Shown here one piece after another: positions 22,472 through 56,690 of a DNA stretch of 64,000 nucleotides. The position numbers were made by a program, and so were the translations under genes. The stretch comes from Acidobacteriaceae bacterium. GTDB lineage: Bacteria; Acidobacteriota; Terriglobia; Terriglobales; Acidobacteriaceae. Every line of letters begins with the position of its first letter. Within the stretch, counting starts at the first letter, position 1. The notes below the pieces were generated by a model that did not search any database, was not told the DNA's origin, and saw only the letters and a program-made list of their open reading frames with translations. The stretch is from assembly GCA_030041305.1 (NCBI GenBank), contig JASHOC010000280.1, forward strand, positions 1-64,000, in the 5' to 3' direction.

Positions 22472-23282
22472 TTATTCCGCGGTCGGCATGTGCACATACA
22501 TGGATTGAACGCCAACCCTCCCCGGACCGGTAAAGCGGTTCCACACCAGGTTGCCCGCGCTCGCGAACAAGCCCGTCGTCAGCCGTTGGAACTGCGTTTC
22601 CATTTGCACCGACGGATCTTTGTAGACCCATCCGCCGGGCTCGATGTCGATTTGCTCTCCGGCGCCGAGCGTCACTTCGAAGACGTTTCCGTAACCGTGC
22701 ACCCACACAATGCCCTCTGCATCGAGAGCACGGAAGTGATCGATGAAGAACCCCGTCCCGCCCAGCAGCATATTTGAGACGCCTTTGACACGCGTGAACG
22801 TGTAGTCCACGGTTCCGGTCGCGGCCAGGAACTGATGCTCGCGCATGTCGAGACCTTCGCCCCGATCCAAATGGATGGCGAAGATATGACCAGCCCCGTC
22901 ACGGCTGAAGCCGAGCTGTCCTGGCCCGCTGGCTTCGGTCAGAAAAACGGGCATCCCCGCTAGCACGCGCTTCAGGGCGCCCTTGAGCGGCCTTACGCCG
23001 ATGCGCACATTGAGGTCCTTCCAAAGGAGAATGTAATGCTCGAAGTACACGGGCACGCCGCCTACGGCGGTTCTCCAATTCCCGTGGAGTTTTGAGGGGC
23101 GTGCCAGGTGGCGTTTTCTTGGGAAAAACGCCACACAACGTTCGAGGTTCTGCTCTACACCAATTGGAGAACCGCTATAGTTCGAGATGCAGCACGGGGA
23201 CAAGTTCGCCTTCTACGTGATAGGCGACTCCGGCAAAGGTCTCACCGCGGGCTGCCGTCGGTTTCAGCACAGGGATGGGCAT
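22472..23282 (-). pseudogene. AIM24 family protein gene interrupted by a MITE
   Basis: The original start is the ATG at 23282 (MPIPVLKPTAARG), preceded by TTGGAG. The first 36 codons run to VPVLHLEL, where a 117-bp element (23063-23179) begins with a stop codon (TAG). Beyond it the frame continues as GGVPVYFEHYILLWKD, then EHQFLAATGTVDYTF, VWVHGYGNVFEVTL, EQIDIEPGGWVYKD and NRFTGPGRVG, all typical of the AIM24/TIGR00266 family. Deleting the element and one TA leaves 696 nt, an exact 232-codon frame. AIM24 proteins are beta-helical; the mitochondrial homologue affects cristae structure and bacterial roles are unclear. A shortened product from a downstream start is possible. Confidence 0.85.
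23063..23179. mobile_element. 117-bp MITE, copy A, inside the AIM24 gene
   Basis: Terminal inverted repeats of 18 bp (TACGGCGGTTCTCCAATT and, inverted, TATAGCGGTTCTCCAATT; two mismatches) flank a central hairpin (GTGGCGTTTTC / GAAAAACGCCAC). TA dinucleotides at both ends fit a TA target duplication, as in IS630/Tc1-mariner elements. The predicted empty site joins the AIM24 reading frame exactly. It is nearly identical to copies at 40945-41061 and 56574-56690, with no coding capacity. Confidence 0.9.
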
Positions 23283-39974: not shown

Positions 39975-40977
39975 TGAGGCCGTCCTCCTGCTCGCCCACG
40001 GAACTCCCGAAACCGTCGACCAGATTCCTGAGTATCTGCGCAACGTAGTCAGCGGCCGCCCCATTCCCCAACCGGTCATTGAAGAGATCCAGCATCGCTA
40101 TTCCCTCATCGGCCGCAGCCCGCTCACAGAAATCACCATGGAGCAGGGCCGCCTCGTTGAGGCGGAGCTTGCCGAAGCTGAGCGCGCCGCCGGCGGCCCC
40201 CCGGTTCCGGTGTACGTCGGCATGCGCAACTGGCGTCCTTACATCCCCGAAGTGGTCCGCCGCATGTGCGCCGACGGCGTCCAAGCAGCCGCGGTCCTCT
40301 GCATGGCTCCGCAGAACTCGCGCACCAGTGTCGGCCTTTATCGCCGCGCCGTGCAGGCTGAGGCCGCAAGTCTGCGCATCGACTTTACCGAGGCTTGGGC
40401 CCGCCACCCGCTCCTCGCCGACGCCTTTGCTGAGCGCCTTCGTCCCGCCTGGCAAAAACTCAGCGCGCAGGCCGGTCATTCGGTTCCGGTGCTCTTCACC
40501 GCCCACAGTGTCCCCACGCGCACCGTCGAACCGCCCTCCCCTGATTCCGCCGGAGCACCTCGCCTCTGGCCTGGTGAAGGCGCCGATCCTTATGCCGACG
40601 AGGCTCGCCACACTGCCGAAATGGTCGCGGCGCGGCTCCCTGAAATTCCCCGCTGGTGGTTTGCTTTCCAAAGCCAGGGCGCAAGCGGCGGCCCGTGGCT
40701 CGGGCCCACCGTCGAAGAAACTTTAAGCTCCATCTCAGAAATCGGGTATAAATTTCTGATTCTTCATCCGATAGGCTTTCTCTGCGATCACGTTGAAATC
40801 CTCTACGACGTCGACCATCTCTTCCGCGACTACGCCGCCCGGCTGGGCGTGAAACTGGAGCGTCCTGAATCGCTGAACGCCTCTCCAACCTTGGCCAAGG
40901 CGATTGCCGATCTCGCGCAAAAAGCGCTCGCCCGCCTCCGCCACTACGGCGGTTCTCCAATTCCCGTGGAGTTTTGA
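39967..40977 (+). CDS. hemH: Ferrochelatase with a MITE-derived C-terminus
   Basis: Protein of 336 aa. LLLAHGTPETVDQIPEYLRN opens the class II chelatase fold; VLFTAHSVPTRT contains the catalytic His and LHPIGFLCDHVEILYDVD the Glu region, both in the expected places. It inserts iron into the porphyrin (coproporphyrin or protoporphyrin). The last ten residues (YGGSPIPVEF) are encoded by a 117-bp MITE inserted in the original TAA stop codon: without the element the frame would end RLRH-stop. The catalytic part is intact, so activity is expected. It overlaps hemE by 8 nt. Confidence 0.94.
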   Translation: MANEAVLLLAHGTPETVDQIPEYLRNVVSGRPIPQPVIEEIQHRYSLIGRSPLTEITMEQGRLVEAELAEAERAAGGPPVPVYVGMRNWRPYIPEVVRRMCADGVQAAAVLCMAPQNSRTSVGLYRRAVQAEAASLRIDFTEAWARHPLLADAFAERLRPAWQKLSAQAGHSVPVLFTAHSVPTRTVEPPSPDSAGAPRLWPGEGADPYADEARHTAEMVAARLPEIPRWWFAFQSQGASGGPWLGPTVEETLSSISEIGYKFLILHPIGFLCDHVEILYDVDHLFRDYAARLGVKLERPESLNASPTLAKAIADLAQKALARLRHYGGSPIPVEF

Positions 40978-41061
40978 GGGGCGTGCCAGGTGGCGTTTTC
41001 TTGGGAAAAACGCCACTCAACGTTCGAGGTTGTGCTCTACACCAATTGGAGAACCGCTATA
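40945..41061. mobile_element. 117-bp MITE, copy B, in the hemH stop codon
   Basis: Near-identical to copy A, with the same 18-bp inverted termini and central hairpin. The predicted empty site reads CGC CAC TAA, so the TA target was the first two bases of the hemH stop codon; the next in-frame stop (TGA) lies within the element at 40975-40977. Confidence 0.9.
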
Positions 41062-56573: not shown

Positions 56574-56690
56574 TACGGCGGTTCTCCAATTCCCGTGAAG
56601 TTTTGAGGGGCGTGCCGGGTGGCGTTTTCTTGGGAAAAACGCCACTCAACGTTCGAGGTTCTGCTCTACACCAATTGGAGAACCGCTATA
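56574..56690. mobile_element. 117-bp MITE, copy C, intergenic
   Basis: Near-identical to copies A and B (a few substitutions, such as GTGAAG for GTGGAG), with the same 18-bp termini, TA flanks and central hairpin. It lies between the YwiC-like and bicupin genes and interrupts no recognised gene. Confidence 0.9.

Follow-up and report, generated by a model that had tools for sequence, protein, structure and literature searches.

A recent MITE insertion in an acidobacterial AIM24 gene and its family of elements with a largely constant central hairpin and class-specific ends

The window analysed here, 64,000 nucleotides of contig JASHOC010000280.1 (assembly GCA_030041305.1) from a soil bacterium of the Acidobacteriaceae, contains an AIM24 gene split by a short inverted-repeat element. 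The downstream gene fragment (22,472–23,062, reverse strand; 196 aa and a stop; Pfam AIM24, 111 bits) and the upstream, N-terminal fragment (23,180–23,282, reverse strand) flank a MITE that measures 117 bp with the TA at each end (copy 1, 23,063–23,179, forward strand) and has a mobile unit of 113 bp (23,065–23,177). Its left (23,063–23,080, forward) and right (23,162–23,179, reverse) terminal inverted repeats, each including its TA, are identical at 16 of 18 positions, with 14 bp matching perfectly (TACGGCGGTTCTCCAATT / TATAGCGGTTCTCCAATT) and the mismatches at positions 3–4; a 27-nt hairpin core, GTGGC..GCCAC (23,108–23,134, forward), lies 45 nt from either outer end. The upstream part of the gene is cut off after 35 codons by a TAG that the end of the element supplies (CTA TAG), and the open frame of the downstream part continues through the element, starting at TTG, to give 243 aa. 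A preliminary description of this DNA had placed a 117-bp segment with inverted termini and TA ends at 23,063–23,179 and had claimed that its removal restores the frame; the coordinates are right, and leaving out 115 bp (the 113-bp unit and one TA) gives 231 aa and a stop, or 232 codons.

The downstream fragment was used to search 36 genomes of the genus, its own among them; 31 gave matches, mostly distant homologues (26–33% identity), and five besides its own hold close orthologues (83–96% identical). The preliminary description had proposed such a comparison and had named as evidence against an insertion either the same 117 bp in an orthologue or the lack of a TA-flanked empty site in all relatives: all five close orthologues have the empty site, and none has the insert. 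Their alignments close once the 115 bp are omitted, and they read CTC or CTG where the interrupted gene reads CTA. Given these empty orthologues, the nearest of them in G029 (96% identical; an 84% complete MAG with only 2 element matches), the simplest reading is that the insertion took place after the two lineages, this one and G029, had separated. The MITE insertion duplicated its target TA and broke the AIM24 frame.

Two further copies, unmentioned in the preliminary description and carrying 2 and 3 differences respectively, lie in the window. Copy 2 (40,945–41,061, forward) entered an upstream ferrochelatase gene (PF00762, 234 bits) at the TA of its TAA stop codon, and the gene thereby gains 10 codons and a new stop; across the empty site of copy 3 (56,574–56,690, forward) the longest open frame is 107 codons. 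A 14-bp end pattern (up to 2 mismatches) matched six times in the window against a shuffle mean of 0.65, and a 15-bp end pattern (up to 1 mismatch) matched 430 times genome-wide (212 forward, 218 reverse) with none for the reversed-pattern control, counts so far over their controls that chance is excluded. The right-end pattern occurs 217 times in the genome, leaving about 213 left ends by subtraction, so the genome-wide search that the preliminary description had suggested yields about 215 copies. DNA searching of the same genome gave at least 40 listed matches, all of the full 117 bp at 99–100% identity, with 233 first-look candidates, and the exact core pattern occurs 191 times.

We characterized 113 distinct copies, drawn from stretches around 100 listed end matches, 19 earlier loci and the window. 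The length is 117 bp in 111 of them (including L116, which was scored in the wrong orientation), TA stands at both ends in 107, and the target reads Y-TA-R in 110, compared with 119 of the 1,288 TA sites in the window. Since 38 of the 111 are identical to the consensus, the burst appears recent; two sub-lineages are marked at positions 25 and 44. Four ends in the sample were unpaired: one at a contig edge, one belonging to a decayed older element and two chance-like. The older element (L114:1477–1730) has a recent copy at its TA end, and itself has another end class and a worn core. Stop-codon targeting, the situation of copy 2, was considered and rejected (27 of 113 copies lie in stop codons, as do 194 of 703 control Y-TA-R sites, no enrichment). 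Separately, the target is asymmetric with respect to element orientation among the own-genome copies L001–L020 and L109–L183 (TTAG 56, its complement CTAA 16; p = 2.4e-6), a bias for which stop codons do not account. In being under 200 bp, dispersed in many copies and without a transposase, and in having terminal inverted repeats and a TA duplication, the element fits a bacterial MITE.

Turning to the enzyme that might move it, 19 DDE_3 (IS630-type) matches occur in the genome and none on the window's contig, in line with the earlier claim that the window lacks a transposase, which must act from elsewhere. The accompanying claim of a TA-targeting, IS630/Tc1-mariner-type insertion agrees with the TA duplication and the Y-TA-R context over the 113 sampled copies, a CTAG-like context; a preference of IS630 for TA in CTAG is named in the title of a reference listed in PMC2170065. 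From these sequence features we infer that the MITE is moved in trans by an IS630-family transposase reading its ends. An IS630 element with matching termini, which the preliminary description had also proposed to seek, was found only as a relative: a related end agreeing at 23 of 28 positions is present, and an exact match was not found. This end, TAGAGCATTTCTCCTATTGCTGTAGAGC, belongs to an own-genome IS630 type in three copies (C42, C134, C320), of which contig ends truncate two; the 23 positions are shared with the right end of the MITE, and 19 of 28 with the left. Of the type's two overlapping frames, the main one scores 136 bits and the other 45 bits against NF033545 (IS630 transposase; cut-off 100), and G015 holds a relative with both ends. 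Because an IS630 end scan at the loose threshold of 18/28 gave 10 matches in the reversed control sequence too, only high-scoring ends were used. As candidate partners, the 19 own-genome DDE_3 loci were searched with the 14-bp end pattern (up to 3 mismatches); three loci matched, none with the same ends, L029 and L030 at the related IS630 end and L031 as a lone unpaired match. Among the IS630 loci examined in this genome and its relatives, none had a transposase with the MITE's exact ends (CGGCGGTTCTCCAATT). As regards a possible origin of the MITE by internal deletion from an IS630, the exact core pattern was absent from the IS630 loci examined; the true parent IS was not found.

A DDE_3 search of eight relatives found the domain in six; G004 (99% complete) and G010 have 12 and 15 right-end matches yet no DDE_3 match, so that their enzyme has been lost, was missed or is of another kind. 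These two genomes would suit a mover other than IS630, either a different TA-target transposase or a host process, which we nevertheless judge most improbable in view of the TA duplication, the Y-TA-R preference and the related IS630 ends in the same genome as the MITE.

Of 60 genomes, 19 (its own included), all of one genus, have a match to the whole element; among 20 matches from relatives aligned with the consensus, 19 are 115–119 long and one is 126, with the centre kept. The exact core pattern recovered at least 120 stretches from a named genome collection, the 80 matches listed coming from Acidobacteriaceae, Terracidiphilus, Granulicella or Acidobacteria MAGs, and gave 0 matches in viral contigs. 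It is present in 2 of 396 genomes sampled across the phylum (its own and one other of the same family) and in 29 of 398 sampled from the family, representing 7 of 79 genera, with controls at 0 among the matches listed.

Around this core the ends vary. In 122 core matches with full context, the total length is 116–119 in 97 and outside that range in 25, the left arm is 45–47 in 99 and the right arm 44–45 in 103, and the end classes are many, for example GCGGTTCTCCAATT, GCATTTTCGGAATA, GCATTTTCGATTCA, GCGGAACCAGAGTA, GCGGTTCCACAGTA and GCAAAATCGGAGTT. The classes were sorted without a reference; sorting against one reference end (41 of 120) missed other classes. The family has forms of about 117 and about 155 bp. 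The preliminary description stands as regards the MITE insertion, and had not recognised that the element is one of a family whose members share a core while their ends differ. Recombination or gene conversion could have homogenised the core among MITEs and swapped their ends at the same time, and two elements, L243 and L278, seem by eye to have ends of different classes around a core, which makes them candidates for an exchange between MITEs by recombination at the centre they share. They are the only such cases noted among the 122, however; the rest of the 13 elements with poorly matching ends (12 or fewer of 20 positions) look cut or wrongly bounded, and core loops differ among copies within one genome, which leaves this explanation rather unlikely.

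Because the 122 matches had been chosen by their core, we also looked for elements by their ends. Scanning by ends the loci that had been fetched by the core gave 81 elements (reversed control, 0), of which 66 have the exact core and 15 do not. On reading, seven of these 15 have a core-like hairpin (one, L341, in a stretch containing N), seven have a second central hairpin, GGTYGCCGCTC..GCGTCRACT (core B), and one, L328 (90 bp), has neither. End-structure scans of 1.09 Mb from nine relatives (G026, G035, G021, G004, G031, G008, G002, G028 and G016), a looser one over 405 kb (control, 0) and a general one over the whole 1.09 Mb (control, 3), found 10 IS630-type MITEs, nine with the first core (core A) and one with core B. 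All ten come from three genomes (G026 five, G021 two, G004 three), the other six having none. Contigs were taken by number in G026, G035, G021, G008, G028 and G016, and likewise in G031 minus C6 and C7; G002 was represented by evenly spaced stretches and G004 by contigs with earlier matches. Two of the three G004 elements (L388:3615 and L391) were known beforehand from the whole-element search, and without them the tally is seven core A and one core B of eight.

A GC-rich insert occupies the hairpin loop in four of the nine core-A elements from the end scans; it is about 40 nt long in three of them and short in the fourth. More generally, a GC-rich, REP-like palindrome of about 40 nt (CACCCCAGCGACGAAGACCTGTCGCCGGGG-like) occurs in the loop of MITEs with either core, at L343:4019, L347:8477, L354:18758, L259, L262 and L250; insertion of a palindrome into hairpin loops would fit a transposase acting on single strands. 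The other inverted repeats from the general scan were one 243-bp element and, in several relatives, TAGCTNC tandem repeats, which stand in inverted arrangement at L364:990, L390:11677, L394:9339 and L413:1457.

We compared identity segment by segment in a pool of 42 elements, reduced to 29 (406 pairs) by omitting seven with core B, two merged duplicates and four that aligned badly. Only elements with a core-like centre thus entered the set, the 7 of 42 excluded on that ground all being core B; the core was taken to lie where it fitted best, and whole-element BLAST matches or the own consensus make up 17 of the 29. In the 85 pairs whose end identity is below 0.5, the two core arms have identities of 0.83 and 0.89, against 0.35 and 0.39 for the ends and 0.38 (left) and 0.58 (right) for the spacers. 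Restoring the four badly aligned elements gives 0.85 for the core arms over 104 unlike-end pairs, and for the 14 elements not found by BLAST the value is 0.86 in 25 such pairs. When the consensus arms are shuffled and placed identically, identity has a mean of 0.49 and a maximum of 0.73 in 200 trials. These values bear on the main rival reading, in which the element is an ordinary IS630-derived MITE whose core is functionless and shared through common ancestry and recent spread. Consistent with a single lineage, the elements have length and layout in common, and within the samples searched the exact core occurs in a single family. Against ancestry alone stand the core arms at 0.83–0.89 between unlike-end classes whose spacers are at 0.38 and 0.58, since inner sequence under no constraint should diverge at least as fast; it is an account that we regard as credible but short of probable.

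Base pairing in the core was examined in 23 distinct cores, none of them picked by the exact-core pattern although six are neighbours in loci so fetched; they derive from 33 elements after removal of five same-core repeats, four elements with loop inserts and G031. Pairing holds in 90.9% of cells. Stem pair 4 is GC in 19 cores, UA in 2, CG in 1 and other in 1, and pair 6 is UA in 10, GC in 4, AU in 1, CG in 1 and other in 7. The covariation score of 0.140 (0.087 in shuffles) was reached by 1 of 500 shuffles, and the number of cells changed on both sides of the stem was likewise matched by 1 of 500; the numbers of doubly changed pairs (2; shuffles, 1.9; 327/500) and of further pair types (10; shuffles, 9.5; 247/500) are not outstanding. 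Template switching, moreover, can correct one arm of an inverted repeat against the other, and selection is not needed for this. The stem of core B contains a C-G to T-A exchange (nine copies, one at a locus edge).

The core might instead act after insertion, at the RNA level, as a terminator, an RNase site or an mRNA stabiliser, and be kept since copies bearing it harm the host less. Folded as single-stranded RNA, copy 1 is predicted to close into a single extended hairpin that contains an inner stem-loop (0 of 200 dinucleotide shuffles fold as well; z = −6.3), and Rfam gave 0 matches at gathering scores over the whole window. Such a stable hairpin would suit this role, as would the proposal, in the excerpted text of PMC2229807, that Correia/NEMIS elements are processed as RNA, and the under-representation of copies in frames of at least 200 codons (30 of 104 copies, where Y-TA-R control sites give 167 of 337; p = 2e-4). 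Avoidance of genes, however, is expected of any insertion, and no T run follows the hairpin in the sequences aligned; we consider an RNA-level explanation improbable.

Taken together, the locus very probably records a recent IS630/Tc1-mariner-type MITE insertion, by a member of a family that in the sampled relatives has a largely constant length and hairpin and class-specific ends. A non-autonomous MITE jumped into a TA inside AIM24, with duplication of the TA and loss of the frame, as the empty orthologues and the TA duplications demonstrate; an IS630-family transposase, acting in trans on its ends, would be what cuts and pastes it. The central hairpin might act in cis to aid movement of the element by whatever IS630 enzyme fits its ends. 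The length over which DNA is stiff is about 150 bp, longer than the MITE unit; folding back of the DNA at the hairpin, for instance, could let two ends about 115 bp apart pair, and the central position and near-fixed length fit a hairpin that brings the ends together. Alternatively, the hairpin could bind a host factor, as with the IHF site suggested for the longer Correia element in the part of PMC2229807 consulted. That the hairpin helps transposition is a tentative suggestion from comparative sequence data, to which we would give somewhat less than even credence. The broader proposal, likewise tentative, is of an inside-out bacterial MITE superfamily in which a portable central hairpin, constant in size and place, would be conserved by selection and the ends may be exchanged to fit different IS630s, so that one core lineage could change its mover. 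If the middle is kept while the ends change, very short elements would depend on something internal, either for moving or for being tolerated, and as the genome holds some 215 copies and sister species have empty sites, a role of the core is testable with simple donor plasmids.

Among known systems, RUP elements measure about 107 bp. Correia/NEMIS elements have constant ends, whereas the present family varies in its ends and is constant in its hairpin centre. RUP of Streptococcus pneumoniae, with 110 copies in one genome, resembles this MITE in its TA ends, its target duplication and its proposed movement in trans by IS630-Spn1; it belongs to another phylum, and no core constant across families with unlike ends is described for it in the excerpts of the two sources (PMC2229807; PMC3049150). 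The Correia/NEMIS elements of Neisseria likewise have TA ends and two size forms, theirs of about 107 and 155 bp, the longer containing a 50-bp internal sequence with an IHF site (PMC2229807, in part). IS630 and ISY100 share the TA target and its duplication (excerpt of PMC2170065); they differ in being autonomous and about 1 kb long, the present element encoding no transposase. A parallel in pattern comes from CMITE of Acropora corals, whose internal region, as here, differs less from family to family than the terminal repeats do, for which its authors named ascertainment bias and suggested a role in transposition; CMITE is eukaryotic and piggyBac-like, with piggyBac ends, and the excerpted text describes no hairpin core or fixed length (PMC2872659). 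The ascertainment bias raised there is addressed here by the end scans, with their small count. We found no bacterial MITE family with a constant core and varying ends in the open-access literature by title and opening of abstract, a body of text outside which most subscription papers lie, so that one may exist. Ordinary MITEs keep their ends, which alone are thought to be needed; a kept centre with changing ends is the reverse of that usual pattern.
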